Assembly: GCA_037951105.1 (NCBI GenBank)
Contig: JBAMJV010003958.1
Span: 1-64,000 of the forward strand
Reading direction: 5' to 3'
Source: Echinarachnius parma
Lineage: Eukaryota; Echinodermata; Echinoidea; Clypeasteroida; Echinarachniidae
DNA: 64,000 nt
The notes beneath the pieces were generated by a model. It had not been told where the DNA came from. It ran no database searches and saw nothing but the letters and a program-made list of their open reading frames with translations. Within the stretch, counting starts at the first letter, position 1. The number at the start of each line of letters is the position of its first letter. Both the position numbers and the translations under genes were made by a program. Positions 5,781-58,900 of the stretch are shown here, piece after piece.

Positions 5781-6168
5781 TTAAAGGGACTTAGTAACAT
5801 TGTCCAAATCCTCAAAATACAATTGTAATTCTAGCGGTTCCCTCATACCTTGTTGTATTTGTATCAACAATAAAATCATGGGACAGGTTTCGGTTTTTTC
5901 AAATTTCACTTTCGTTAAAAAGATATTTACCATTGAAGTGTTCAGATGTTAAATAATCCAACGGATCGCGAGAACAGTGTACAAAGTGAGTGCAATGAGT
6001 TTGTGAACATCACTTTGCATTTTTGCTCATTACTCGGCCATATAACGTCCATTTGACTTGAACATTTCACACAATACCCTGTGGACATATCAGATAACAA
6101 CAATATACATTGTATTAACCATTCATTACTTTTTGCACATGTCAACAAAGTTACTAGATCCCTTTAAA
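5781..6168 (+). mobile_element. TTAA-ended MITE, 'GGGACTTAGTAACATTG' family
   Basis: It begins TTAAAGGGACTTAGTAACAT and ends 'aaagttactagatcccttt'. Sister copies lie at 9131-9401 (inverted), 49255-49616 and 55181-55536. The right end shares its TTTAAA with the left end of the next MITE. Confidence 0.8.
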
Positions 6169-34957: not shown

Positions 34958-35970
34958 TATATTTCAAAATCAGCTCTGGCCCACTAGCCCAGGGCCACCA
35001 AAAACTCTATACTGCCCAATTTTACTTGCCCAACAGGGCAACTAAGATGAATAGACTTTTTAAAGGGGTAGTACAGTTTTGCATAACAATAGCCCTCTAA
35101 ACTTGTTTTCCATCGAACTCTATGCATATTTACGTCTTTAAAAAAAAAATGTTGGGGCTCTTTAGCTTAATTGCCCTAATCCTCCATGTATATTTTACAC
35201 TGCCTTGCATACATTAGTTTCTGCTATATCATGCACAAATTTGGCAAGTTTTCTGGTTGCCAGGAGTTACCTTTATTAATGGGATATGCAATGAATTTTA
35301 ATATATATGTTTAGTTAAGCGGTTTACTGGAACAGTCCAAGAGAGATATTGCACGAAAATATATCTGATCACACAAGAAAAATTACTTAAAAATAATTAC
35401 CTCAAATTCGGTGGGAAATTATAATTTTGTTCACGAATATAAGAAAATCACATGAGGGACTAATAAGTTATTTTAATTTTCTATGATCAACTCATTTAAT
35501 TGTGACCATGTCAATACAAATTCTTCTTTTAACTGAAGAAATAAGTTGAGTCTAGGACATTGTCAATGTCGAACTCTCCCTTCTTGGGAACATTCTTGCA
35601 CAGTCTTTGATAATATAAAAGAAATGAGTCTAGAACACTGCCCAAATCAAATTCCTCTTTCAAGTGAAGAATGAGAGGACTCTATGAAATCCAGATAAAT
35701 TCTTCTATTTCAACTGAAGAAATAAGTTAAGTCTAGGAAAGCTTCCACGTCGAACTCTCCCTTCTCGAAATAAGTTGAGCCAACGACATTGTCCAGACCG
35801 AATTCTACTTCCGGCTGAAGACATATATGTGGGGTTTAGAACGATGTCCTGATCAAATTCTTCTTTTGACTGAAGAATATGAGGATTGTATACCATTCAA
35901 ATTCAATTCTGCTTCTCTTGACTGAAGAATACGAGGATTTTTATAACATTAAAATTCAATTCTTCTTCTT
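34958..35970 (-). repeat. POLRMT 3' flank with decayed copies of the terminal exon
   Basis: At least five further copies of the last 40-90 bp of the terminal POLRMT exon (35512-35600, 35640-35690, 35697-35760, 35775-35830, 35850-35935). Hallmarks are 'ctgaagaaataagttgagtc' and 'gtcgaactctcccttct'. All are degenerate. 34958-35500 shows nothing apart from a MITE end at 35056-35085. Confidence 0.75.
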
Positions 35971-36081
35971 TCAACTGAAGAAGTAGGTGGAGTCTAGGAC
36001 ATTGTCCAGGTCAAACTCTCCCTTCTTGGGAACATTGGTGACGTAGTCTTCGACGGTCTCCATGTTCCTGTGTCCACGCTT
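35971..36081 (-). repeat. Near-intact tandem copy of the POLRMT terminal exon
   Basis: It is a 114-bp-offset duplicate of 36085-36195, starting right after the real stop. It is open from [14 protein letters not shown] to [14 protein letters not shown] and its own TGA. Nine coding differences from the real exon: seven synonymous, two conservative (Ile to Val, Asp to Glu). A CACAG|G acceptor-like site ending at 36068 is in phase with the preceding exon's donor. Confidence 0.85.
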
Positions 36082-36084
36082 CTT

Positions 36085-36220
36085 TTAACTGAAGAAATAA
36101 GTTGAGTCTAGGACATTGTCCAGGTCGAAGTCTCCCTTCTTGGGAACATTGGTGACGTAGTCTTCGATGGTCTCCATGTTCCTGTGGCCCCGCTTCAGCT
36201 TCAGCGTTTCCTCCATCTTC
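36085..36220 (-). CDS. POLRMT: POLRMT terminal exon
   Basis: [20 protein letters not shown], then [14 protein letters not shown] and TAA at 36085-36087. Acceptor 'actacacag'. The final STYFFS is typical of metazoan POLRMT. Confidence 0.97.
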
Positions 36221-39200
36221 CTGTGTAGTAGAAATAAAAGAAAAGACAGAGAGAAAATTATCAGATAATCATTTGATGAAACATAATTTCTTGACTAATT
36301 TCTGACTAATAATATGTTTTGGACATGTGAATAGCATGAACCCCACAAAGATACCCACCCAACACATACTCCACAACGGTAGAATACAGGGGAACCGACC
36401 AAGAAGAAGACCAGCCAAAAAGGGGACAGATTGCGTAAAAGAGGACTGTGCTACTAGACGCATTAATTCTCTAACTCAAGCCAAAAGATTAACAGAAGAC
36501 AGGAAGATGTGGCAAGTCGTCATGTAACAAAAGCCATCGCACATCCAGGCAATAGTGTGGACGGCATAAGTCAAAAGTATGTCAATATGATTTGTAGATA
36601 CCAGGGTAAATATTCAATAACTTGTTAGAACATTTTATCGAGCCCTTCCTTTTTTATGGCCAATTCAATTCACTGTCTAGTAACTTTGTTCCACCTAACT
36701 TAAAATAAGTTGAGAATTCCAAAATAAAGATTGTCTGAAATATTGCTTGGAAACATTTCCGACCACTTTCTCTTCATGGCAAAACCAATTTGCTGCCTAA
36801 TAATTTTGCTCCCATCGTGCAAAAATCTAATCAAGGAAAATTATACTGTATCTTTTTGTACAAGAGGGCAACATTAATACATTTGTTGAAACTATGATGC
36901 AGAAACTATGTAGGCTTGTAAATTGTACTTACAGTTGTCCATACTTGTCGACCATGAAGTCGGCCAGATTGTCCAGGATGGGTTCCTTGTGAAGCTTGAC
37001 AAACTGATTCCTGCAGATCTGCATTTTAAAAAGGAAGGTGGAAAATATCAACCTTTATTACTAACATCACAAAATGAAAGCATCTACAAAAGGAAAGAGA
37101 ATATCATTCCTTCTAAAAAAAAATCAGGTAAACAAAGATTGTCCAGGATTGGTTGCCTTTGAAGCTTGACAAACGGATTCCTGCAGATCTGCATTGGGAA
37201 TGGATGACATGTAAAAAAACATCTTTAATTACCAGCTTCACTAAATGAAAGCAATTGACAAAGGAACGAGAATATTATTCCTCTAAATAACTGGTGTAAA
37301 CAAACATTGTGTACAGGATTGGTTCCTTGTGAAGTTCGACACACTGATTGATTTAGGTGGTGTCATGTAGATGAGGCACCTTTTCATTTTCTTGAGTTTA
37401 TTTTCTTTATTTACATGATGGGACTACTGCCGGTTTATGTTCGTTTGGTCTACACCTCATTTGGTCTACTACCTGATGGCTTTAATTTAAATTTCCTTAA
37501 GTCAAAACTTAATCCATAATCCCAAACCTAACCCTAATCCACACCCCTAACCCTAATCATAATCCCTAATTATAATCCTAAGCCCCCAAATTTATAACCT
37601 TCTAGTAGACCAAATGGCTGTAGACCAATCGGCAAGTTACCCTACTGCCTATATTTGAGTTTGGCTATAGTCTCGCCATGATATTGGCTATTGCAGATCT
37701 GTCTCTGAAATACCCACTCAGTCAAACCTGTGTATAGTGACCACCAAAGGGATACAAGAAAAGCAGCCACTGTAGACAGGTTACCTCTGTAGACAGGTTA
37801 CATCACATTGTTTCTCATTTTGGTGGCCACTATACCAAGGGTCTCTGCTACACACAGGTTAGGCTGTAATAAGAATGAGCAAGCAAGCCCCAAAATAAAC
37901 AAATATTTCAACAACCAACTAACATAAATGTTTCCTCACCTGGTTCATGACATTGACAGAACTGGCATGGGTCCAGAAGCAATCGTGCACAGAAGCAAAT
38001 GTTATACCAGCCCTGAGTGAAAAGAAAGCAAACAAATTAAATAGAATGATCCTGAATATCAAAGAAAGGAATAGCAAAAAAACAAACATAAAATTGGCCT
38101 TTTTCCTGGACATGTAGAGCATTTTTTCAGGACCTCACAACAAAAATGAGATAAAACACCCATGATTATATTATCCTTTCAGATTTTTAGCATGATTATC
38201 CCTGAAGCAACCTCAATTTTTCAAATCAGATGTAATTGTGTTTTGTGAAAGGGACTGTCTCTAAGAGTAGACTGAGGTGAGCATCATGTGAGTCAAGTCC
38301 ATGAAGTGAATTAAGGTTGGTGGAAAAGTTTTTTCAACTTCATCATTATTTGATTGTTTATACATTATATAAACATATTACCAAATGTAAGACTGAATTG
38401 GAAGAGTATTTTTTTCAGAATGGTTCAAACTTGTTACCTCTGAGAGTAGAGTGAGGTGAGCATCATGTGCGTCGAGTCCAGGGAGTGAATGAAGTTTGGC
38501 GGGAAGGCATTCTTCTGCTTCATCGTGTCTGGCCGCCTGTGATAAAGAAAATCATGAGGAGTGTCTCTGTAAACCCTACTATTTATTACCATGGCAACAT
38601 TGTGTTGTAACTTTCTGATTGGATTCAATTGGTTGGAAACTCATCTATCAGAAATCAAGATGACTTTGAAGAATATGAGAATAAGATTTAATGACGTACT
38701 ACAGTCAAACTTGTGTAAAGTGACCAACCAGAAAAACGGCCTCCGTAGACAGGTTCCATAACATTGTTATCCACTTCAAGGGATCACTTTTTGTGACTGC
38801 TACAGGCAGGTTGGCTGCTACCGACAGGTGGCCTTTAAGACTGGTTTGACTGTACAAGATATAGTATTATACTCAACAATAAAGTGATAAGAAGAACTTC
38901 TAGTTGTGAGGATTTTACATATAAAATATGCCGGACAAGTCACAAAACTGAGTGGTACACCAGATGAAGTCACTCACAGGCTTTACATTGCGCCCTCCTT
39001 GGGAGATCGTTTTGAGGGTTCTCTTGTGGTAAGGTTGTATGACGGTAGAGTTAGATGGAGAGAATGGGTGGGGGGGGGGGAGATATTTGTTAATACTCAC
39101 TCAGCCTGACTGTGCCTCTCTTCATGGTAGACATTGCGCCCCCCTTGGGAGATCATTTTGAGTGTCCTCTTGTGGTAAGGTTGGATGATCGGAAGACCCA

Positions 39201-42200
39201 GGGGTGTGACCCACTCGACAGTCTCCCCTGCCTTGGAGATCAGCCATGCACTTTCTGTCAAATAGTCCTGTCGTATAAAACAAATACAACATTAATATCA
39301 AGAAATAGGGAGAAAAACATAACTTGTTTCTCTAATCAGATTCTGGAAGACTTTGAATTTCAGTTATCCTGCAGCAAAATATATCTGAGATTCAAGTTAT
39401 CTATTAAATCCTACCAACCAGATCCCCCATCTTTCTCAAAATGAACATGACCGACTTTAAAAGAAGATTTGCTGTAGAAAACTCTATTGTTGTTTATAGA
39501 CATCATAAAATCTCTTTTCAATGTTTACAGATATCTTCCAACTAACCTGAATCTCTCTGGTCTTTGTGAACATCTTCCTGAGGCTCTGGAAGACCTTGAG
39601 TGTCAGGTATCCTGCAGCAAACCACTTCTGATCCGTTGTCAGATCTTCCTCATCCCTAAGCTGCTTCAGAATTTGCCGTCGTCCACCGTAAGATGTCACT
39701 CCATACACAACTGTCATCACCGTTTGTTTCACAACCTGCAGAGGACAAGGTTAATTCATTTAAATTCAAGAAAGTTTCTCATAAACAAAGCCATCTTTCT
39801 AAACTGGACTTTGATATCAGTTAGATCGTCTGTTGTATCTTTGGGAACTTCTTCCCTTGAAGCTGCTTCAGATTTTGTTGTTGGCCTCCGTAGGATCTCA
39901 CTCCATACACAACCGTCAAGGCAAAATTAATTTCAATTCACAAAAGCTTCTCCTAAACAAAGAACTGTACTATCTAACCTGGACTTAGAAATCACGTTAG
40001 ATTGCATGTTGTTTCACTGTGAACATCTTCCTAAAGCTCTGGAACACCTTTAGTGTCGGGTATCCCACATCAAACCCCACCTCTGATCCATTGTAAGATA
40101 TTCCTTGCCTCAAAGCTAGTTGAAACTTGTCCACTTTTGTCAAGTAAAAATGTCAAATCATTTTAATCAAGATTGACTTTGAATACTGTTCCATACACAA
40201 AGTCTTGATATTTATTTTGTCTATTTCAACATAATGGACGTGGACATGGTGTGGCAAGATTGGTAGAGCGCGCGCTTTCCGATCTCGAGATCCCAAGTTC
40301 GAACCCAGCTCATTCCGTTTGTCCTTTAGCAAGACAATTAATCCACATTGCTGCTCTCTACCCAGGAGTATAAATGGGTACTTGGTTGGGTGTTAATTAG
40401 CTTTCAGCGCCCGTTGGGCAGCTGGGCTAGTATGCGCAAGATAATTGTGCGGGTTTGACCTGTACCTGATGACCAAGGGTAATAATAATGCGCTTAGAAA
40501 CATTGTATTAAGCGCTATACAAATGTAATATATTATTATTATTATTATAATCAAAGACTAGGAGCAACCATACTCACATTTCTCTTGACGTGACCCTCCA
40601 GCGCCTGAGCGATCTTGTTCCCTTTGGCCGCATCTTTGGCCCTCATCTCCTCTACCTACAAGGATTAACAGAAATAGAGTAGCCTCGGTTTAATGGGGTA
40701 ACATTTAACCCTATCTTAACTGGGCTATTTGAGACCAGGTTTTTACTGGGGGGGGGGTCAATTTGACCCCCCCCTAACATCTCGGAGACCGATCGTCCGA
40801 TTCACGCAAAATTTTGCATGGAGGTACATTGAAGTGTTAGCGACGCGTTCATGTTTTCGTTTAATCGATCCAATGTTAAATATGCAAATTATATGCATAT
40901 TAATTAGCGAAAAATGCAAATTTTATGCAAAAATCCTCTTTTTGTCTGTAAATCACTAAATATTGCTCAGAATATGCTGATTTTGTACATGAATATTCTC
41001 TATGACTTAATTAACAGGTTTTCAATTTTTTTTTTTTTTTTAATGTGTTTCTTTGTTTTTGGAATTTCTTATGTATTTCTTTGTTTTTTAGACTTACGTT
41101 TTTTATTGTTTTTTCCAATGGAAATAATTATTGACCATTATCCAACCATTTTTAGCCCCAAATTACATAATTGCAGTGATTAGAATGAAAAATAATGAAG
41201 ATTTTGTCTTTTCTAGGAAAAAAATCAATTTCCATAGGATTTGTACACAAATCACAAAATTTAGCGATTTTTGGGCCGACGCTCACTTACAAAAGGTCAC
41301 GTGACTTTAGAACGGTACACCCGGTCGTCGCAAATTTGGTCTCAAAAGTTGCGCAAGACTTCAATGAAAAAACTCAGGAAGTCACGCGGCAATATCTGCG
41401 CGCGTTGCGGAATTATCGCGCAAAAAGTCGAGGGGGGGGGTCAAATTGACCCCCCCCCCCAGTTAAGATAGGGTTAAAGGTACAAAGCATCTTTGGCCCT
41501 CATCTCTTCTACCTACAAGGATTAACAGAAATAGAGTAGCCTCGGTTTAATGGGGTAACATTTAAAGGTACAAAGCATCTTTGGCCCTCATCTCTTCTAC
41601 CTACAAGGATTAACAGAAATAGGAGTAGCCTCAGTTTAATAATGGGGTAACATTTAGAGGGTACAAATGTTAAAGGGGTAGGATTTGACTGAACATTTAT
41701 GTTCTATAGGAAATGTTTACTACTTAAAGGGTACCACCACCCACAAATAATATTCTTATTAAAGAAAGGTAACATCTTTAGTATTCCATTCCATCAACAA
41801 GTTCACCCAAATATGTTTCCAGAAAAAAAAAAAAAAATTTGAAACGCATCACCACTCTAAAGCATGCGTTCATGCGGTCTGAATTGCGAAGTCTGCGATG
41901 TGTGCGGTGAATTGCGATGTGTACGAATCGCCCGGGAATCTATTGTCTACAAACGTACGCAAATGGTGGGCCCGTATGGAACCAGGAAATAGCAGTGGTT
42001 CCGTAAGTGGTGGAAATTAATTGCTTTGTTTATGAATTCCACAACCCTTTGAAAAATGTTGGGTATCTATTTGATATCACAAAACGGTACCAAAACATAT
42101 AATAATGTGTTGTTCTTTGCCTGGTGGTCCCCTTTAATCTTATGCACTTGATAAAGGGGTAACGGTCTTGCAAAAGTGGAGACTACTGTAATATAAATAT

Positions 42201-45200
42201 TAAATGAGAACTTCATTAGTATGATGATTTTGTTACATAAGTCTCAGATCGAGACTGCAACAAACTTGGGACTTTAAGAGGCATGAGATTGATATTGGTT
42301 TTGTAAGGGAAATGAGTACAGTGCTTGTACAGCAAATGGCAGATACAGATGTTCATCTTACCATTTGAGCCACATCGCTGTACACATCCCGAGGATTAGT
42401 GTACGGATGGAGATTTCCAATTTGCAGAAACTAGCAACCGAAAGCCTTGCGGTAATATTCATCATCTTTTACTGATTGTGTAGAAATGCAAATGTACTGT
42501 AAAAGACAGATACTGATGTTGTTTATCTTACCATTTGCCTTCATAGCGAGGTAATTTTCAGCATCTGTTGATATTGTTTGTATTCAAATGAAGGTTTAAA
42601 GTGCAATGTTAGAAGTAAATGACAGATATATAGATGTCAATATTACCATTTGAGCCACACCGCTGTACACATCCTGAGGAATATCGTAGGGGTGGAGGTT
42701 GACTTGCTGAGCTCCGATCAGGTCTCGCCCAAGGGCTGCATAGTGCTGCAGACCATTACATGAACCATCCTAGAAATATTTAATAAAAGGTAATTAAAGC
42801 TAGGATATTAATTAAATGAATGGAATAGAGCAGACTGGACTATTCTTTTTGTTGTTGATATCATAGGGTTGGAGGTCGACTAGCTGAGCTCCGATCAGGT
42901 CTCGCCCAAGGGCTGCATAGTGCTGCAGACCATTACATGAACCATCCTAGAAACATAAAAGTAAAAGGTACTTCCTCACAAATATTAATTTATTAAAGCT
43001 AGGATATTAATCAAATGAATAGAATAGAGCCGACTGGACTATTTTTTTAAATGTTGATATCATAGGGTTGGAGGTCGACTAGCTGAGCTCCGATCAGGTC
43101 TCGCCCAAGGGCTGCATAGTGCTGAAGACCATTACACGAACCATCCTGTCAACGTAAAACAAACAAGACATTTCCTCATGAATATCGACTAATTAAAGCT
43201 AGAATTAGTTAATGGATGGACTAAAAATGAGTGGACTATCATAATAGATGTTGAAATCGTAGGGGTGTTGAAGTCTTAGCAATGGAGGTTGACTTGCTGA
43301 ACTCCGATCAAGTCTCGCCCAAGGGCTGCATAGTGCTGCAGACCATTACACGAACCATCCTAGAATACAAAATTATTTTGAAATTAACTAGATGGATCTT
43401 CGACAGGGATGTCTCCGCCATTGCACAAATTGTATATCAATCCCAAATTAACTTGCACTTAATGAATTCTTTTAATTCAAGTCAACTTGTTCTTGAGATT
43501 GCAAGTTATTTTTTGAGCCTTGTGACCTGTTTCCTCTGACATTTTGCCACTGACATTTTTACCCGACACCCACAAATCAACCTGTCAAAATGAGACAAGT
43601 GGCATTTTAAAATAACTTTCAGGAAAAATTTCAACTACTGTTTGACAACCATAAGCAATTTTTAGCTCAGCACTTGGTATTTTTGCTGACGATTAAGGCA
43701 ACCATCCTGTACAAATCAAGCAAATTCATTTTGAGTTAATGTTTTCCGCCTGCTGACATGAATGCTATACATGGGACTAACCTGGTGGATTGGTAGATGA
43801 CTGACATACTGCTCTGGGTTCCCTGATCGCAGTGCCTTTGTAACTTCAATACATGATGCTAGAGTCTGCCACGGTTCGTCCGATTCCTGCCACCATTTGT
43901 TACCCTGGAAAAGGAAGGTAACAAAAATAATATAATTAAAATAACAATTAGATAATAATAAATAAATAATAGCTTGCATTTATATAAATAGCGCTTAAAA
44001 ACAGGGTTTCTAAGGGCAAATTACACTTATTACCCATGGACATCAGGTACAGTTCAAGCCCACACAATGATATTGCATACTTTCTCAACTACCCGGGGAG
44101 CATACTAGACATACATGTATGCTGCCAACTGATAACTATTAATTTACAACCAGTTACCAACATTAAAGACAACTAGATGGATCTTCGATTGCGCGCAATC
44201 GAAAATTATGCCTCCGCTATCACGCGATTTTAATATCAAGCCCAAATTAACATGCACTAATTTAATTTTTTTAAATATTTTTCATATATTTTGAGTCCTG
44301 TGACCTTGACCATATGACCCTAATCTTTGATGGCTCCCTAAAAAACATTCAGGTACCAAGTTTGATTGAAATCTGACATTTAGTTCTTGAGATTTTGGCA
44401 TTACAAGCTTTTTTGCATAAAAATGAGTCCTGTGACCTTGACCTCAACCTCATGACCCAAACATTTTATGGCTACGTTGACTCTTTATGATACATTCAGG
44501 TACCGAGTTTGATTGAAATCTGACATTCAGTTCTTGAAATTTTGCCATTACAAGCCATTTTCGCATACATATTGAGTCCTGTGACCTTGACCTTTGACCG
44601 CATGACCCCCCAAATCTAATCAGATCAGTGGCACCCCGATATGTACACTCATACCAAGTTTGAAATTGATCTGTCAACCGGTTCTTGAGATATCGCAAGA
44701 ACAAGGCTTTTTTACACATACATTGAGTCCTGTGACCTTGACCTTTGACCTCATGAACCCCAAAATCTAATCAGATCATTGCCACCCCAATATCTACACT
44801 AATACCAAGTTTGAATTTAATCCGTCAACCAGTTCTTGAGATATCGCGAGAACGAGGCATTTTTGTATATATATTGAGTCCTGTGACCTTCACCTTTGAC
44901 CTCATGACCCCTAAAATCTAATCAGATCATTGTCACCCCAATATGTACACTCATACCAAGTTTGAAATTGATCCGTCAACTGGTTCTTGAGATATCGCGA
45001 GAACGAAAACGGGACGTACGGACGGACGGACGGACGGACGGACGGACGGACAACCCGAAAACATAATGCCTCCGGCCACTTCGTTGGCGGAGGCATACAA
45101 ATTACCATTGTTCAACAATGAGCCCTACTTTCATTAACACAGAATATATCATTACAACGAAAAATATAAACTTGATATCACATTTATTGTGATTAAAACA

Positions 45201-48200
45201 AAATAAGACTGTGGACAAATCTGCTCAATCAGTCTTTACAAACTACATTCAAAGTTTCATCATTTATTGTAGTTACTCAAAGTACTATATTGTGAAATTA
45301 ACAATTAAAAAAGTACAAATTCAACTAAATATTTACAAGATGAGTATAACAATGGTGGTGGAACTAAAAGAAAATATTTACATGAAGCTGATAACGATCA
45401 AATAATAGAGTGACTTACATCTAGCGGTTTATCTGCAGAGTCAGCTATCTGAGGCATGAGTTCATTGGCGTAAGAAAGCCTGTCATCAACAGAGCACCTG
45501 GAAGAGATATACAAAAAGGAAAATAAATATAACATACTGTATTATACATAATTCAATCTGGTCATGAACCAAGTCAGGATTAATAAACAACATTTCTCTC
45601 TACATGGGGCATGTATGATAATATTTGTCAGGTACTTTTTGTGAAAAATTGCGTACAAATGAATGTGAAAATTTGTGCGCGAACTCTGATGCCCCTTTTT
45701 TAATCGATTTAAATTAAAGGGTTTTGAAAACCGGACCAAATTGATAGAATACATTGAGCAATCTCAAAACGAAAACATGTTCATTTTGCTACAGAATATT
45801 TGGAATAAACTGGTATTAGAATCATGATAAACATCAGTGTATTTCTTTCCAAAATGTTGCGTTAAAAGTTGTGTGCGCGAACTTCGATGCTCCATCATAC
45901 GTTCTTTTTTAGAAATTAACTGTCTGAATTCCACATCAATGTAGCTTGTGTAGAAAGTATTTTGTAGGTTATGCAGCAATTGGATTAATAAGATTTAATT
46001 ACCTTTTCTTGTGTCCCGTGAGGTTGACGAGATGAATTTTCAGCCATCTGAATCCCTCCTCACCAAGCGGCCTCCCCTTCGCAAATTTGAGAAGACTCCG
46101 CGTGACATCGTTGCCAAAGTGGTTGAAGTGCGGTGGGCATGGGTAGACGCGACCTCGGAAGTCCATGTTATGAGGGAACCACATGATTTCATCTCGGAAC
46201 TGTATCAGGAAAAAAAGTGATTACTTCAAGCAGAGCGAAACTGACCAGAAATATATGATATAAATGAAAATTAACAAATAAATTAAGGCTTCCCCGGAAT
46301 TTGAATCCGAGACCCCCATGACCCATTTGATCAATTTGCAGTGGGCAAGGATAGACAAACTGTCAAAGTCCATGTTATGTGGTAACCACATGATTTCATC
46401 TCGGAACTGTATAATGAAAAAAACAATCCAATAAACAATGACACATTTTATCAATTTGTAGTGGAAATGGACAGACATGCTCTATGAAAGTCTGTATTGC
46501 ATAAATTTGAAGCAAACAAATATGGGGAAACTAAATTATTTTATCTCGGAACTGTACTGGCAAAAAGGGAACATAAAATGATAAATTTTTATCAATTTGG
46601 ATTATGCATGGATACATATGACCTAAAAGTTCCTATGATATATGGAAACCACAGGATTTTATCTTGAAACTGTACCAAGAATAAGCCACATACAATGCCC
46701 CATTGAATCAATTTGAATGGATAAATGTGATAAATGCGCATTATAAATATGGCATCATCATCATCATCATTTAATCGGACCATACCTTGTTAGCTATGGA
46801 CAGCTTGTACAGCATGTCCATCCTGAGCGAGTGCATTTCAGCCTGCATCTTGCGTGCTGCCGCCCTCTCTCGATGGATCTGTGCCAACTCCTCTCTCGTC
46901 ACTTCACTGCAAAACGAAGAACAGAAGAACAGAAGAACAATGTATGCATAACTTTGATCGAGGAGTTTGGTTGCAAAAAATGCAATATCACAATTTTTCT
47001 AATAAAAAGATTTTTGCTTTTCTGGTCCCTCGCATCCCTACATTACTTTTGTTATTTTCATCATCATTGAACAATATTTATCATTCATACTTAAAACGGA
47101 ACTGATGCTCCTCAAATAGAAAGAAAGAAATTCTTACTCTACACAAAACAATTATCCAGGGAAACACTTTTGAAGACACCATAGCACAGCTTACCTAGTT
47201 ATCCTCGGAGGGTGTGGACATGCTGACGATGACTGTGGGATGTCAAGCCCTTTGCTCCCACCATTCCTGAACACAGATATCACTGTGTCCAGCACCTGAT
47301 TGAAAAAGAGAGGAGATAGCAGTGAACAACAAAATTATGAATGCATAACATATTCAACTACTTCTCACCTGAAACCTCTAAAGATTTGTTTACCATTTGA
47401 AAACTTTTATAAAAAGAGCAATACAATCAATCCCCCTCATTTCTTTTTCCGCACATTATCTTTGCCAAACAAACCTGTTTGCCTGCAAAATTATTAGAGA
47501 CTATTTTGTGAGCAAGGGCAAATAAACTGATCTAAACAATGTTTTTGTACATGTGATGACATAAACGGTACCCTGGGGTACCAGACGAAAATCCGCCATT
47601 TTGTTTAATTATTTATTTAATTTTTAGGGCTGTACTGTGGGTATAGCGTGCATACAATCGCGCGCTGCACTGCATGCACAACGCAATAGCTGCGGTACGG
47701 TTGGACGCAAGATGGCGCTACACAATGCGGTACCCCGGGGTACCGCGTGTGTCATCATGTACCAGACACAACCCAATGTGTCACCCCACTCTCATCCTGA
47801 TTAGGATTGGGTTGTTGCTCGTAAGTATCTGTTTCTATGGTGAAATAGATACATGGTTGGTTTGCGGTAAATGGTATGGCTTCATTGACTCCCTAAGATA
47901 TATTCATGTACCAACTTTGATTAAAATCTGACATTAAGTTCTTGAGATCTAATCAGATCATTGTTACCCCAACATGTACAATCATACCAAGTTTGAAATT
48001 GATCCATTAACCGGTTCTTGAGATATCGTGAGAACAATGCCTCAGGCCACTTCGTTGGCCGAGGCATAAAAATGCAAGTACTTTCGAATTTAACATCAAG
48101 AACATGAAATCTCCTAAATAATAGAAAATATTAATGATTTAAATAAACATTTTATATCTTTTAAAATAACTTATACAAACATTTGTCAAAGAAACTAACA

Positions 48201-49795
48201 GCTTTCCATAATGTTTAAGTTCAACTTAGGATCTTTGTGAACCCCCCTCCCCTGCTTACAGGTTCATTGATGATCCAAGGCACGGTGCTCAGCTGGTTTA
48301 GGGCATCCAAGATGGGGTAGAGGTTTTGAGATGGGGTCTTTTCTAGAAGCACCTGGTGCTGCTGGGCGCCATCTTTACTTCTCATGATCTTAGCTGCAAA
48401 TGGAAATTGAAACAAACATTCTTTGATATCCAATCAACTATAAACCAATTCAGGACTTGTTACGAAAATACTTGGGCTAAGCTCTATGGAGAATAATGTT
48501 ATAGCAATATCAATCAGTCCTGAACGGGTTATAACAACAATTATTAACACAATTAATAGTAAATCTGCCCCCAATCGTCATGATCTTTGCTGCAAATTAA
48601 CATACTTTTGAATATCCAATATACTAGAAAAGTAATCATTATTAACAGAACACTTCTTAATAGCATACAGATGATTTTCAATATGAAACGATTTAAGGAA
48701 TATCTTACTTGAGCTAAGAGGGTAGGCACCAAATCTGACAGAAGTCCAAGGTAGGGGTGGGGTGAGCATGGGAAGCATGTTGGAGTCAAACTCAAGATTA
48801 GGATCCTTGGCGGTCTGGAACAGGTCCACTAAGGTGGGGTGCGGCTGAGAGAGAGAGAGGGAGAAATATTATTAACCCATCAAGGACGAGAGCTATTTTA
48901 AGGCAAAATTGATCAATTTTTCCCTCTACAAATTGGCAACTCCTAATTTTTTCATGACAATTTAAGACAAATATGAAGTGGCTTTGCTGCAAAGTTGCCA
49001 ATTTGAATGCCAAAATCTGTTTTTAAAATATCACAATGTGTTGCCAATTTAAGGATTTTTCTAAATTATAGCTATTTATGCAATAATAAAAATCATTACA
49101 AAATAAATAAAGCAGATAGAGTAACAAAATAGGGCTCTAAAAATAAAGAAACTTATGCTCTTTCTCCTTGTATACTTCACATAACTTTGTATCTTCTTGC
49201 TGAAGTGTAGGACTACCAACACACAAATTTGTGGGACACCGTCCTTGATGGGTATTTAAAGGGACTTAGTAACATTGTCCAAATCCTCAAAATCCAATTG
49301 GAATTCTAGCGGTTCCATCACACCTTGTTGTATTCGTTTAAACAATAAAAGCATGGGACAGGTTTCGGGTTTTTCAAATTTCCCTTTCGTTGAAAAGATA
49401 TTTACGATTGAAGTGTTCAGATTATCCAGTGGACCGCGAAAACTGTGTACAAAGTGAGTGCAATGAGTTAGTGAATATAACTTTGCATTTTTGCCCATTA
49501 CTCGGCCATATAATGTCCATTTAACTTGAAATTTTCACACAACACCCAGAGGACATATCAGATAACAACAATATACATTGTATCAACATTGTCTTCAAAG
49601 TTACTAGATCCCTGTAACGATTATTATTGTCTCTGTCATAGTCGTCATTGTCATCATCATCATCATCATCATCAGCAACAACCACCGCCACTGCTGCCAC
49701 CACCACCACCATCATCATGTAATCATCATCACCATCTAACCCCATTTCTTCAAAAAGCACAATTCTTACCTTGATAAAGCCCACATGCTTTAAGC

Positions 49796-49840
<45 letters not shown>

Positions 49841-49853
49841 ACATCAACATCAA

Positions 49854-49885
<32 letters not shown>

Positions 49886-49910
49886 ACATCAACATCAACA
49901 TCAACATCAA

Positions 49911-49978
<68 letters not shown>

Positions 49979-52900
49979 CCATCTAACCCCATTTCTTCAT
50001 AAAGCACAATTCTTACCTTGATAAAGCCCACATGCTTGAAGCTCCTGTAGGTGTACATGTGGTATAGGGCTGGAATCCACTGCCTAGAAAATGAATAGAC
50101 AGTAACAAAATTAAACATCAATGATTCATTTCATGTCAAATAAGAATTGCTATGCAAGTATATGCAGTGTAGCAAAAAATATATACCAATAATTTGAAAC
50201 AATTGTTCTTTAAAATTATATATAAGTCATACATATAGTTTACACTTGAAATGTAGAGTATATCAAACATGGCTGGTGATTTAGATTGAATATCATGAAT
50301 GAACTTATATAATTTGTATTTAAATGTATTAATATCAATGTAAACATCAACATTTCAGCCTTTGGGCTGCCGTTGTATGTATTTTGCAATGTTTTTACCG
50401 AAATAAACCATTATTGAATTGAATAACAAAAAGTGTTCATACTTGTCTGGTTTGCTGTTGTGCATGTTGACATCTATCTTGATCTCTCTCAGCATCATGT
50501 CTGCTAGCAGAGTACCAACCTAAAAGAGAAAATGAGACACTTATAAAACAAATGAAGTAATCATTCTAAATTAAATATTGTAATTTTTCTTTGATAAATG
50601 CTATTAAAGTTGGCTACCATATTTAGTATTATTTAAATCAATCAGAACTATAATTCATTCAATATTTGTAATCAATAACAAAATATCATTTAGTAATCTA
50701 GTGGCTTAATTATGTTCCGTATTTGGGAAATAATGTGTACAATGTATGTACTCCTCTCCTTATTCTATATCTTAATTTATTTTATTTTAAAGAAAGCATT
50801 AACTGGATATTTTTCTAAATCAAAATGATTGCTGCAGAACGCATTTTTACGCAAGCTGAACACTTTCAATAATATGGTATCTTCACATGGACATCAAAAA
50901 ATACAAAGCAACCCTGACATGAGTACTCACCCCGATGTGAAGCCCAGGGGGCCACGGTTTGGCTTGGAAACTCTGCAAGAGAGGAAATAAATAAGACTTA
51001 ATGATGCAATACTCAACTTCATTAAATTTCTCTCTCTAGGCCGTGAACAACTGAGGTTTTTTCCTCCATGTTTCAATCAGATTTACACAATCAAAGTAGA
51101 TCATTTGATTCATTATTTTGGGAATCGGGCATTTTAGAGAATACATTCGACAAGAAATGTAAACACTGAACTCCTTTAATTTGTTCAAGTCAGATACATA
51201 CATATTGCACCGTGCACAGATAGTCTGAGATATCTTTCGTTCATAAAGTCCTCAACTCAAAATTCTTTGAGAAACCTAACCCTAGAACCTAATTTGGCAA
51301 TTAAATAAGAATTTAACAGAATCATTTTCTTTTTAAAACATCATCTAAAGCTAATAACCACTTGTTTAGAACATAAGATCATACATAAGAAGATAACATA
51401 AGAAATACCTGGTCAAGTGAAGAACTGCCTAGCATATCATCTTCAAGGCTCTGGAAGTACTCCCTAGGTAACTGGAAATCAGTCTTGCCAGCCTTGACAG
51501 CATCTCTCACATAGGTGTCATACAAGTCTTTGATCTGAGAAGAAAAAATTGTTGCAAGTCATAAGCTTTTTCAAATATATTTTCTCATAAAAAACAATAA
51601 AATGAAAGTCAGACGTCAATGTTCACCCATGGAAGTACTCCCTAGGTAACTGAAAATCAGTCTTGCCAGCATTTACAGCAGGTTTTTGATCTGAGGAGAA
51701 ATTGTTGTATCAATTTTCTCATAAAAAACAACAAACAGAAAGTCAAAAGTCAATGTTCCACTATAGAAGTACCCCCTAGGTAACTGAAAATGTAGCCTTG
51801 TCCTTCATTGCTTCTCTCACATAATTATGTGCTGTACAGATCTTTGATCTATGACAAAAGAATAATATCATTAGCTTAGAGAGTTATCTACAATTACTGG
51901 AAAGTAGCTTTATCCTTTTAGTATATAGTACATTTACAATCTGACATTATGCTAACACCATGTGGAAAGTAAGAAGTGGGTGTCTACAGTTCTGACTATC
52001 CATATCCATTGCCAGTCCAGAAACAATACTTTGAAACACATTTGAGAATCAAAATTGCACAGAAAATTTTGAGAACATGGATTAATGTTTCAAGCAATTT
52101 ACTTAAAGGCATATATGCGTGGGTTATTAGACGCGTGGATCCATCTTGCACACTTTTACGCACGGTACGTAATCCCCATTGGCTCAGTTATAAGTAGCGA
52201 TCGCAAACTGTCCCATTTCTGAATACCCGAGTCAAAAATGCATTAAAAATAGTCGCGTTCGGAATGTTTGTACTAGTCGAATGGAGATCCATCAGAGATG
52301 TTTACGAGCGAAAATATCACGTAACACGCTTAACCGCAACCGACTTCAAAGTGCCGCCGTTTGATGGCTAGGTGACAGCGTGAGAAATTTGTTTGCTGCA
52401 TGCAATTTCATAAGAAGGCCTTTGTTCAGATATTTCGAGGCACCTCTCTTCGATCGATCCAACATATATCTCGAGTTTACCTCGAGAGATTACGGTGGAG
52501 TCGAGTTGGAATTTGCTGACTACCCTTTATAACCCACACATATATGCCTTTAATCAGACTTTCCTCACTCAGCAGCACATTTTATTTCAAATATTTCATG
52601 AGGAATTTCCGTCAAAATTCTGTACCTGGTCGGCGTTTCCCTGCTTGACCTTGGCGCGGATGCTGTACTTCCTGAACAGCCGATTGCTGAGGTCCCTGGC
52701 CAGCGCAATGGTCATACTGCCCTCTGTGGTTGATGCGATGCTAGCCAGTGACTGCAGCATCAGGTTCACATACTCCTCTGGTTTTAGGAGGCTCAGAAAC
52801 GGGTAGTAACAGATGGAGCCAAAGTTTGGATCTAGAGTTCAAAGGTCAAAGGTTAAATAGGTTCATTATTTGATTATTACTTAGGTCATACTGCCCTCTG

Positions 52901-55900
52901 CAATTGATGAGTTGCTAGCAATCGACTGAAGCAGCAGGTTCACATATTCTTTTGGTTTAGGAACAGGTAGTAACAAAGCAATCCAAAGTTTGGATCTGGA
53001 GGTCAAAGGTTAAAGGATAATAATCTGATTCTGTTTTGATGAACAATTAAGGATCTGTATTAATATATGTATTTTATTATGTTTTATTATGCGCAGTTAT
53101 TCGTCCGATCGGAAATTGGATCGTGCAATGGGTTGAGGTTAGGTTTAGGGCAGGAGCTCAATAGCGAGTTCAAGGAAAATGTAGTTTCGGGCATCATGTC
53201 TTAGACCTAATCAGACGTAGACTAAATGAGACCTAGACCAACCAAGCAAGCAAAAATCAAAGCAAAGTTGGGTTTAATACTTACTCTTGAACCGGAAGTG
53301 CTGGCGAGTCTTCTCATTCTCCAGGACTCTCTTCAACGAGGTTCTCCAATGGGCCCGATGCTGCTCCAATAGTTGCCTCTGTGGAAAACGCAGAATTAAT
53401 TTAAAATTGAGTCCAATGATATAGTACATTTGGGGCTGCTTGGTGGGCTGCAGCCACCCTAAATAAAATTCAAATGTGGTATAGTTGTTTACAATTATGA
53501 ATACATATTTCGATATGTGTTTCTATCTATGCTCTAAAACCACCTTTCCCAAACCATAACCTTAATGCTAAGACACTTCGATCTAAATATATTTCTACAG
53601 ATTCCAGTTTACTCTCTGAGTAATATCCTAGTCGCACTTTAATAATTGTTAATGTAATTAATAGATATTCAATAACATTGTTAAATGGAAAGACTGATTG
53701 GATGAGTGGATATCCATACTGTAAAAAATCACAACACAAATAACGCATTGTTACCCTGTGAACAGTAGCTGGGTCTGGATTTCCAGTCTCTTCTACAGAA
53801 AGAACATTGACTGTATCTGATAATACTCCATGTCCCACTGCTGTCTGATTCTGCGCTCTAAATCCCCTTTCTCCATATTATACATGTACTGTCAACTGTT
53901 TTGTTTATGTGTACACTTAACCTGTTCCCCACGAGATTCTGAAATCCCCATACACTTTGTACATATCCCACTCGGTTCCCGTAGGCAAGGGGTTAACAAG
54001 CGCTTAGAGGCTCTTTTGCAATATCTATAATCGTTATTATTATTATCATAAAATTAAAGCTTAAATTACAAATTGTTACCCTGTGAACAGTAGCCTGGTC
54101 TGGATTTCCAGTCTCTTCAACAGAAAGAACATTGACTGTATCTGATAACTCCATGTCCCACTGCTGTCTGATTCTGCGCTCTAAATCCTCCCTGCTCACC
54201 AGTTCTGTGGACTGACTCGGATCCTGAAAGTGAAAGAAGTAACAAGGTCAATATTAGGGGGTGTATTCTGAAAACGATTTTAAGTTAAAATTTATTGTAT
54301 CTACGTCATATCTACGTCGCTACAATATTACACTGTACTTAAGGAATAGCGATTTACTGAAATATATTTTAGAGTGATTAAAAGCGAGCAAAGAAATATG
54401 GGATTCTAACGGGATTCAAACCCGAGACCTCCGGATTGCTAGACCGGTGCTCTTACCGACTGAGCTATAGTGAAGTAGATATGACGTAGATACAATAAAT
54501 TTTAACTTCAGAATACACCCCCAGGGCTCTACAAAAGTTTTTCTGATTTCCCAGTTGGGGAAGTTCGTAAGAAAATAGCTTGCCCTAATTTGGCACATTG
54601 AACTAAAAGAGGATTCAATTCGTCATTGTCTGATTCTGCGTTCTAAATCCTTGCTGATCACCAGTTCTGAGGATGACACGCACCCTGAATGTGAAAGCAG
54701 GGGTAAGGGAGATATTTCTCCTTCTTGATTTTGCAATCCCCATAGAGTTAATACAGGACCTACCAGGTTCCTGAATGCAATAGGTTAATATAGTAGCCAA
54801 GGAACCAATTAATGTATACCAGCCAAGAACACGACTGACACTTATAATAGTTAAACCAATCATAAAAATGTCTTTTACTCCAAGTTCGAGTTAGGATTTC
54901 TTTCAATCTCTAAGATGGAAACGAAAAATCAATATCGGATTTTCAAAATGGACAAAAAACATTCTTCAAATCATTTTACATATATATACAATTATATACA
55001 ATGAAAACAATTCTTTGAAACATCCGGCTGCATCAGTTGACACCACCTGATCAGAATTCATAACAGAGCTGCCAGATTTGTAAAGATCCCGAACAATCTC
55101 TGACTCGCATCGTGCCATCACCCCCACCTTGGGAGGGAGATCGTTGGGGTCCAGTCTCCTAACAAGTTATCCACCCCTATTTAAAGTGATTTAGTAACAT
55201 TGTCCAAATCCTCAAAATAAAATTTTAATTCTAGCGGTTCCCTCATACCTTGAGGTATTCGTATTAACAATAAAATCATGGGACCGGTTTTGGTTTTTCA
55301 AATTTCCCTTTCATTACAAAGATATGTACGATTGAAGTATTCAGATAAGAAAAACTCAGGTGGAGTTTTGAAACCGTGTACAAAGTGAATGCAGTGAATA
55401 TCACTTTGCATTTTCGCTCATTACTTGGCCATGCGCTGTCCATTTGACTTGAAATTTTCACACAATACCCTGTGGACATATAAGATAACAACAATATACA
55501 TCGCACATGTCAACAAAGTTACTAGATCCCTTTAAATGAACTGATCACCTTTTTAAAATCACTAATCACATTGAAAAATGAATTCTTTAAATTATTCAGC
55601 TGCATCAGTAGAGGTTACCTGATCGGAAATCAAAATAAAGCTGCCTGATGCAAACAGATCACAAAACTTTTTTAACATGACTATTCACAATGAAACAAAA
55701 AAAAGTTCTTCATAATACATTACCTGACTAACCCGATCAGAATTCGCAATGGAGCTGCCGGATGCGTACAGATCTCGAACAATCTCCGTCTCGCATCGTG
55801 CCCTATCCCCTGCCTCCGGAGGCCGATAGTCGGGGTCAAGTCGCCTCACGAGATCGACCACCAGCTCGCGTCCGTCTCCGCTGAACACCCCGTGGGTGAA

Positions 55901-58900
55901 GACGTCGTCAAGGGAGATGCTCTCCTTCTTCATCTGCTGAAGACCTTTCTCCAGGATCTTGATGTCTGGTTCTGGGGACCTGTAACAAATAATTTAACAA
56001 AATATTAATGCTAGAAATTAAACTTTTATCCTTGTGGCCAAGTCGGGCACAGGTAAAACCAAGATCCCAAAACCTGGAACTGAAAAAACATTCTGTTATT
56101 TTAAGTTGCCCAATCGTGCCAGATTTTGGTGGCCCAAGGCTAATTTTAAATAGCCCAGAGCCCAGAGCCTGTGCTAATTTTGTTCTTCTCCACAACCTGA
56201 ATAAAAACTAAAACATACACATAGAAAATGATGCATTGTAAACAAAAAACGCATAACAGCCTTTACAGGTATAAAATAATGCTAAGACAGGTTTTACTGT
56301 AAACATACAGAGATGGCCTTTTAATGGCATTACTGATCTTAAAGGGGAAGGAAATCCCAGCCTTTTGACTACATGGATGTGATGAGAGCATAACTCCTGT
56401 CATTGCTAGTCACTTATTTCCTCTTGAATATTCCTGATTACAAAAATAATAAATGATTTATGGACCACTGTCGTCTGCTTTCAATGCCCACAGGAGGCGG
56501 CCATTTCTTTAACTTCTCGCAGTGAAATGATGTGGCAGGCAGGGACAATGAGGAGAACACAATAGCGTATCGTAACCCGCTATTGTGTTCTCCGCCTGCC
56601 ACCTCATTTCAACGCGAGAAGTCAAAAAAAACATGGCCGCCTCCTGTGGGCATTGAAAGCAGATGACAGTGGTCCATAAAATGTAGATTATTTTTGTAAT
56701 CAGGAATATTCAAGAGGAAATAAGTGACTAGCAATGACAGGAGTTATGCTCTCATCACATCCAGGAAGTCAAAAGGCCAGGATTTCCTGCCCCTTTAAAG
56801 AGCACTTTTGGTTAATTTTCAGGCTTGCTCGAGCTTGAGAGTCACACTTACCTGGCAAGACATTCTAGGGAGGCAGCATACGTCTGAGTATTAGAGACAA
56901 CGTTCTTAGAGACCATTCTTGCCAATAGGTGGCGCACTTCGTTCCACTTGCCCTGATCACAAAGAAAAAATCAGTTATGTTAAATTATTATACAAGCAGT
57001 AATCAAAATCAATTTATGGCTAAGCACTCGATGAGCCTACTGGATACTGTATTATTTTATAGTCCCGTTTAAACAGAAGGCAGCAAACAAACTTTTTTGA
57101 TTCTCAAAGAAGAAGTAGTTTTATGTTGTAATGACCCTTGCTAAAAAACAACCTGCTTACAAAAAAAACCTTTCTATGTTTCCAGTAGTGGTCTTTATAG
57201 ACGATGACATCAAATGCCGGGGCATCGATCGGGGGTCAAACTTGGGTCCCGAGTCAAGCGCTTATCCGATTGTGCCACAACACCTCCACACATACATAAG
57301 AAGCATACTCACTTTTCTGGCCCAGGCTTGAATTACTGTGTTGTAGTCATCTACGTGGACACCCCCATTGAGCTTCTCAAAGGCATACAGTATGGCTTGG
57401 GCATTTTCCACCTACATTGGATTAAAACAACATTAATAACAAAAATGTAGTGAGCAAATGTGAATCATGGGTGTCGATATGCAGTACTTGGTCAATTAGT
57501 GAGAACAAGAATTGGAATGCTCAGGTCATGACTATAATAGCCGTATTAGAAAAGCTAAATTGATCATTATCCTAGATGATATAACATTAATTACAGTTGC
57601 GGGATGAAAAACGGATTTGGGAAATTTTACTTAAAGGACAATGAAATCCGGACAAAGTGTTGTATGCACTATAAGACACTAAATAGGATGAATATTCCCT
57701 GAAAATTTGGGCACAATCGGTCAAGAAATAAGAAAACTATGGCTCTTTGAAAAAATCCATTTATTTATATCAGTGACTCAAATTGGCAACGCACTCTGGC
57801 AAAGTTGTGGACTACTCCGCATATGTTTTGTACACAAAATTTCAATTTTGTTCAATTTTCTCAAAATATATGTTTACCCTTTGTTTGAGTTCAACATATG
57901 TTGTGTAGAATACATTTATACACAACATATCGTGAGTTTGGGGAATGGAAAAGTGTGACTATGAAGAAAACTGTAAAAATGGGAACATTTGTGTACAAAA
58001 CATATGGGGAGTAGTCCACACACTTATCAGAGTGCGTTGCCAATTTGAGTTCCCCATATAAATGGGCATCTTCAAAGAGCCATAGTTTTCTTGTTTATGG
58101 CCCGATTATGCTCTAACTTTTAGAGATTATTCCTCCTAATCTCTTCAGGTCTATGAAAGCAACAGTTTGCTTGGGTTTCATTGCCCTTTAATGAAATGAA
58201 AGAGATTATAACATAATTTATGTGACTCATTCTGATATGGTATCCATAATTCTTGCATCTACTCACACAATCATTGAAGACTGTCGCATCCACGTAAGGC
58301 CTGAAATACAGCTCGGCATCCTCCGTAAACTGCTTCCGTTTCAACCTCTTTCGCTTCCCTCCCATCGTCTGCTTGACCACAGATGTATCAGCCATGTCTG
58401 CTTCACCCATTCCTCCAAGACCCTTGGGGCCTAACGTTGGGACGCTCTCCAACAACTGCACGTCGTGTTCCAACATGTCTTCTCCATCAAAGTCGAACCG
58501 GTTGCCCGGCAGGTCTGCAGTCCTCGTGGAGAAGTCGACCACACCGTCCATTGCGGGAGAGATGGTGGTCTCATGCTGCTCATCCGGATCAAACCCACCG
58601 CTCATTCTCGAGGGACCGGATCCCATTTTTCGGCGATCCTGTAGGTCCGACGAAGCACCGAGATCCGATGGAAGACCGATGTCGCCAAATGCGAGCCTGA
58701 GGTTGTGCAACTGCTGGGAGGCAATTCTAGCCTCAGCCGCTGTTGGCGTGCCACGATCTGAAAACCCTGAAGATACTGATGATGATAATGCTCCTGATGA
58801 TGGCGATGAGGATAATGATCCAGAAGACGATGACAATGATTCCGATTTAGAGTATGATGCTCGAGGTGGATGCGGCGTGGATGGAGACTTCGACAAAATT

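Follow-up and report, generated by a model that had tools for sequence, protein, structure and literature searches.

Partial direct copies of exons beside POLRMT exons and exons of other sampled genes in Echinarachnius parma

Why should about half of the exons of a gene be accompanied by degenerate fragments of themselves in the neighbouring introns? This question is raised by POLRMT, the gene for the mitochondrial RNA polymerase, on a stretch of 64,000 nucleotides of contig JBAMJV010003958.1 (positions 1 to 64,000, the whole stretch analysed, here called the window) from Echinarachnius parma. The assembly, GCA_037951105.1, comprises about 1.2 Gb in 14,790 contigs. The gene model encodes a protein of 981 amino acids, of which residues 4-981 match structures of mitochondrial RNA polymerase (E 1.2e-267). 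The 5' exons upstream of position 56952 lie outside the model, and model exon En corresponds to exon n+3 of a preliminary description of the window, which had first noted the copies.

Self-alignment of the region from 35 to 57.5 kb revealed partial copies in the same orientation, in the adjacent intron or the 3' flank, for 13 of the 24 modelled exons, namely E2, E3, E5, E6, E9, E14, E17, E18, E19, E20, E21, E23 and E24 (Table 1). E11 was left out of the count, its sole match being 20 bp long (E 0.001). All copies are direct and lie less than 1 kb away, the largest spacing being 945 bp. The identity of the copied blocks ranges from 99% (E18) to 68% (E19), with 78-83% for E14. These are exactly the exons listed in the preliminary description (there numbered 5, 6, 8, 9, 12, 17, 20, 21, 22, 23, 24, 26 and 27), and its statements that the copies are local, share the orientation of the exon and differ in age are likewise borne out.

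The idea that the pattern might be special to POLRMT had to be given up when other genes were compared. From 63 matches to chaperonin-family profiles, eight CCT gene segments (64 kb) were selected by the density of their hits, with their sequence still unseen, and a partial local copy is present beside 17 of their 35 profile-located exons; these exons make up 9.5% of the DNA and are touched by 19 of 31 local families. The same holds for two of three DNA-polymerase exons, for which three of 17 profile matches were fetched. Copies were thus found in each of the three sampled gene families, and 32 of the 62 exons that had been located without help from the copies have at least one. Nine families in the sampled genes appeared to be neither exonic nor repeats. 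The inspection covered six of them, and five proved to be missed exons of CCT beta, theta, gamma, delta and zeta, while the sixth, L032:2893 (L-numbers denote loci fetched from the same genome), was not recognisable; L029:1009, L033:5532 (family start 4866) and L037:3370 make up the rest of the nine. The age-matched counts given below refer to 92.5 kb with 67 exons (62 located beforehand and 5 added later) and 50 families in total. As a separate observation, profile hits pair up on contigs C6105/C8375, C4646/C10697, C2694/C8685 and C6025/C10716, which suggests that both haplotypes were assembled.

The geometry of the copies was evaluated with 60 exon-copy pairs from all sampled genes, which do not represent independent events. 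Copies of an acceptor edge lie upstream of the exon in 28 of 28 pairs, and copies of a donor or stop edge lie downstream in 16 of 16 pairs, three of which concern the stop-codon end of E24. The other 16 copies are confined to the exon interior, so that the earlier statement that copies span one exon edge does not hold for all of them. A whole exon was copied in none of the 60 pairs, and no inverted local copy touches an exon in the sampled genes. One breakpoint within the exon, together with selection against duplications that break the exon or double it completely, would produce the observed side rule.

The differences between copies and exons indicate how the copies decay. In 25 hand-chosen pairs they amount to 8.3%, 8.4% and 17.4% at codon positions 1, 2 and 3, and to 14.3% in the flanking intron, i.e., approximately t, t, 2t and 2t, where gap columns are excluded from the ages t. 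Such a pattern results when the copy decays neutrally and the exon changes mostly at third positions. The proposal that the copies might be under selection is therefore not upheld by these pairs, and frame-shifting indels are present in copies. The other proposal of the preliminary description, recurrent local duplication followed by decay, agrees with the direct orientation, the side rule, the arrays with a shared period and the codon-position pattern.

Are exons really preferred, or are copies of exons merely easier to detect? Detection was simulated with indel rates taken from the 25-pair comparison. Intron-intron pairs were detected in 97-100% of cases at t up to 0.06; up to t=0.085 the values were 85-100% for intron pairs (85% for the shortest, 90 bp) and 98-100% for exon pairs. 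From t=0.12 onward intron pairs were detected less often, and exon pairs were favoured several-fold at t=0.15-0.2. Random placement on the POLRMT map yields 22-23% exonic duplications, and 28-29% after detection bias in a generative simulation. With repeats dropped on both sides, 12 exonic families stand against 3 others at t up to 0.06 (p 3e-5 at an expected exonic share of 0.27, 6e-4 at 0.36), 21 against 3 up to t=0.085, and 37 against 4 at all ages. With repeats kept, the respective numbers are 13 against 6, 22 against 8 and 39 against 11. Circular shifts gave a weaker result in POLRMT, with exon contact in 13 of 16 local families compared to 8.5-8.8 expected (p 0.015 and 0.0195), and a clear one for the five CCT segments taken first, with 12 of 19 compared to 5.4 (p 0.001); among families with at least 85% identity the numbers are 8 of 9 compared to 4.2 (p 0.007). 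This null is conservative, because either copy may meet an exon. Within the genes the exon preference thus exceeds the ascertainment effect. The suggestion that the exonic part simply decays more slowly explains the old copies, but not the young families, which are still mostly exonic although there is little detection bias up to t of about 0.085. It had also been reasoned that an equal density of duplications throughout the introns would reduce the exon association to a bias of recognition; the sampled genes contain just 4 non-exonic, non-repeat families in 92.5 kb, while duplications also occur outside these genes. GC content is not supported as a driver: doublets that are not exonic show no richness in GC, and the GC of exons is no different whether they have copies or not. 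There is a tendency towards greater length in exons that have copies (143 bp, compared to 98 bp for the others, p 0.052).

A second regularity concerns the distance between exon and copy. Once repeats are corrected for, 26 of the 34 exonic families have a spacing of 140-235 bp, and 33 one of 66-239 bp; the blocks measure 31-572 bp and the raw spacings are at most 945 bp. Among all direct families in 302 kb, 40 of 110 are spaced 140-240 bp. The 140-235 bp may be read as roughly one nucleosome-repeat length or the length of an Okazaki fragment. Near-tandem arrangements, with gaps below 50 bp, account for 15 of the 34 exonic families. E18 and its copies form an 88-bp array with filler once the TTAA element between them is discounted. 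Among the joints, a short filler is present at E18 and a (TCA)n microsatellite of 62.7 units at E9. Sequence that is found elsewhere in the fetched DNA occurs in 9 of 39 exon-copy gaps, including the longest of POLRMT, and the gap at E2 holds a dispersed repeat of about 380-390 bp. A dispersed repeat of about 350 bp has three copies in the window, at 5781-6168, 49253-49617 and 55178-55535, one of which lengthens the gap at E2. A common inserted element as gap filler was rejected, since 30 of the 39 gaps have no distant match in the fetched DNA, a sample far too small to speak against rarer repeats.

We give about an even chance, if not quite, to the explanation that direct duplication of short pieces, an exon edge or interior alone or together with adjoining intron, recurs in the sampled gene DNA of this genome, mostly over about one nucleosome repeat (140-235 bp), and involves exons above their share of the DNA. 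Such an event would be a local duplication, tandem or nearly so, that occurs when DNA is replicated or a break is repaired, and a candidate route is template switching or the repeated use of a stretch of nucleosome or Okazaki size. As long as one exon stays intact, the duplication would be harmless, and a fragment would be left to decay in the intron on that side of the exon whose edge was duplicated, whereas duplications of whole exons presumably disturb splicing and are therefore not seen. Later transposon insertions may have lengthened some of the spacings.

Several observations speak against this explanation. Inverted families also crowd at 140-240 bp (9 of 27 in the 302 kb), so that the peak may partly be an effect of detection or of repeats. 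When the 62 exons located beforehand are used alone, the excess at t up to 0.06 shrinks to 10 against 6 (p 0.003 at 0.27, 0.028 at 0.36), and to 11 against 9 with repeats kept (p 0.007 and 0.065). In random DNA and the other DNA of the window, about 236 kb altogether, 53 local families pass the repeat filter, mostly without an obvious coding look; duplication is therefore general here, and the exon preference is claimed exclusively within the sampled genes. Plain tandem decay, when simulated, leads to gaps of at least 50 bp in 0 of 240 cases at t up to 0.06 and in 3 of 120 at 0.085, while L030:2090, L031:1342, L034:6534 and E20, with t of about 0.05-0.07, have gaps of 81-132 bp, and residual similarity on the intron side of gapped pairs is slight (z>3 in 1 of 38 tests, z>2 in 3 of 38). 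The random loci comprise 193.6 kb from 19 other contigs and from a single stretch of the contig to which the window belongs; per 10 kb, their local families number 3.4 in direct and 1.4 in inverted orientation, compared to 7.4 direct families in POLRMT. Two of the doublets in random loci, L021:2687-3005 and L012:6795-7060, look exon-like by eye (PHD-finger-like and Ig-like), and hence random DNA is no clean non-exon control.

The modest excess with beforehand-located exons and the many families that persist in random DNA would be expected if the preference were one of ascertainment alone, i.e., if duplications hit exons and introns alike and intron-intron pairs, which decay from both sides, vanished from view. 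The several-fold advantage of old exon pairs in the simulation fits as well, and gapped copies with 73-82% identity resemble decayed tandem duplications: at t=0.16 simulated tandem decay produced gaps in 53 of 101 detected cases, so that old gapped copies agree with decay. However, detection is nearly equal up to t=0.085, and 21 of 24 families without repeats and 22 of 30 with repeats are nevertheless exonic, which makes this alternative distinctly unlikely. The young gapped copies could have arisen by dispersed copying into a nearby break, by loss of the intron part, or by conversion that refreshed the exonic part. Gene conversion in its full form, in which tandem duplications arise anywhere, the exon overwrites the matching part of the copy and the intron parts are lost, would explain gaps without residual similarity next to young-looking blocks and blocks that stop a few bases beyond the exon edge; in 6 of 21 families, e.g., at E3 and E23, the apparent age of the intron part is indeed over twice that of the exon part. 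Yet in 14 of the 21 the two ages differ by no more than a factor of two, the pooled intron/exon divergence ratio is 1.26, and copies are no patchier than dispersed repeats (patchy match runs at p<0.05 in 10 of 48 versus 3 of 15, both sets being non-random overall). We therefore regard gene conversion as rather unlikely.

Two further alternatives appear far less credible. The direct orientation and the exon preference could also be produced by RNA-templated insertion of transcript pieces into breaks of a nearby intron, but the POLRMT self-comparison contains no exon-exon joined matches, unspliced intron is present in many copies, and in some arrays exon plus intron are simply repeated in tandem; this route is thus very improbable. 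Retention for a function, as decoy splice sites or alternative partial exons, might be read from the few changes that donor-edge copies have accumulated from -10 to +6 around the donor, a biased measure, since a copy enters the count only if its alignment extends as far as the edge. The neutral codon pattern, the frame-shifting indels and the absence of any whole exon all contradict it, and we give it hardly any weight.

For recurrent short-range duplication, the exon preference may be due to positioned nucleosomes, to chromatin marks of exons or to the refreshing of old copies by the exon. A stronger version, which we consider conceivable but doubtful, makes exons hotspots, where positioned nucleosomes or exon marks would steer replication or repair, an exon edge would be copied onto the DNA of the neighbouring nucleosome, and fossil half-exons would accumulate beside about half of the exons.

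Table 1. Partial exon copies and an associated element in the POLRMT region of the window.
Feature	Position	Strand	Remarks
POLRMT gene	36088..56952	minus	24 modelled exons, AG/GT sites, matching phases, stop at 36088
E24 (36088-36220), 3'-end copies	35518..36082	minus	blocks 35523-35611 (90%), 35708-35765, 35767-35806
E24, 3'-end copy block	35965..36082	minus	92%, tandem, spacing 114
E23 (36933-37018), acceptor-edge copies	37136..37349	minus	tandem, spacing 170
E21 (38438-38536), 3'-part copy	38259..38344	minus	spacing 179, 82%
E20 (39101-39267), exon-interior copy	38985..39049	minus	spacing 146, 89%, abrupt ends
E19 (39547-39735), three piece copies	39342..40105	minus	39342-39378, 39850-40031 (acceptor edge), 40018-40105
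E18 (40578-40655), two tandem acceptor-edge copies	41487..41656	minus	93-99%, period 88, short filler
Terminal-inverted-repeat element	40704..41479		TTAA at both ends, CCCT...AGGG; between E18 and its copies
E17 (42647-42769), donor-edge copy	42331..42415	minus	82%
E17, array of three acceptor-edge copies	42858..43365	minus	spacings 177, 376, 590; exonic part 93-96%
E14 (46003-46199), three acceptor-edge copies	46337..46684	minus	46337-46423, 46521-46566, 46635-46684
E9 (50017-50083), donor-edge copy	49652..49797	minus	joined via (TCA)n microsatellite 49796-49983
E6 (51409-51534), two acceptor-edge copies	51630..51863	minus	spacings 178 and 312
E5 (52626-52831), acceptor-edge copy	52884..53020	minus	spacing 174
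E3 (54080-54223), donor-edge copy	53725..53865	minus	91%; dispersed repeat inside gap
E3, acceptor-edge copy	54627..54700	minus	85%
E2 (55733-55979), 3'-end copy	55045..55166	minus	78%, extends 2 bp beyond donor edge

The terminal-inverted-repeat element, which we take to be piggyBac-like, has a relative at L032:5279-6057 with 88.6% identity. Positions 44278-45006 are occupied by an array of about 150-bp units rich in a TGACC motif, with relatives at 47875-48073 and in fetched loci; for this repeat, which is itself tandemly arrayed, the earlier statement that transposons between the copies are not duplicated does not hold. A tRNA match at 54406-54470 on the minus strand lies within a POLRMT intron and is perhaps the head of a SINE (short interspersed element).

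The usual view is that mutation takes no account of exons. If young local duplications within genes fall mainly on exons, with a strict geometry and a step of roughly nucleosome size, duplication mutagenesis would be tied to exon chromatin or to splicing, and this link would be testable by genome comparison. If exons were hotspots, fossil half-exons could serve to locate exons without annotation. In any case, gene finders and homology searches should be used with care, as exon fragments are frequent in the introns of this genome, where they also represent a supply of spare splice sites.

How does the pattern compare with known types of duplication? Internal gene duplication of exonic and intronic segments was reportedly described by Gao and Lynch in 2009 in connection with the creation of introns; in E. 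parma, in contrast, the copies are degraded pieces of exons within introns that already exist, and accompany about half of the sampled exons. Tandem genomic duplication across an exon is discussed as a mode of intron gain in the excerpt of PMC3443670 considered here, and shares with our case the duplication across an exon, but our copies lie within existing introns; a new AGGT-bounded intron was not seen in the sampled genes, where none was searched for. Among the titles and abstract openings listed in searches of open-access papers, none reports local partial copies that prefer exons. The closest likeness is with the short proximal repair-mediated duplications of vertebrates, which, according to the excerpted text of Pace et al. 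(2009; PMC2671141), reach up to 619 bp, are ascribed to break repair and rarely involve exons; the 'doublets' of Thomas et al. are cited there. The repair-mediated duplications too are short and closely linked, and partial exon/intron donors occur among them: in the same excerpt 278 of 824 donors are intronic and 4 are partial exon/intron, with a method that looks only inside transposons. The E. parma copies differ from that set, as far as the excerpt describes it, in their spacing of mostly 140-235 bp and in the exonic nature of most young, non-repeat copies within the sampled genes. A spread without exon preference belongs to the description of the human set, although it does not strictly define it; in the E. 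parma genes, in contrast, 12 of 15 young non-repeat families are exonic, and 10 of 16 when the exons located beforehand are used.

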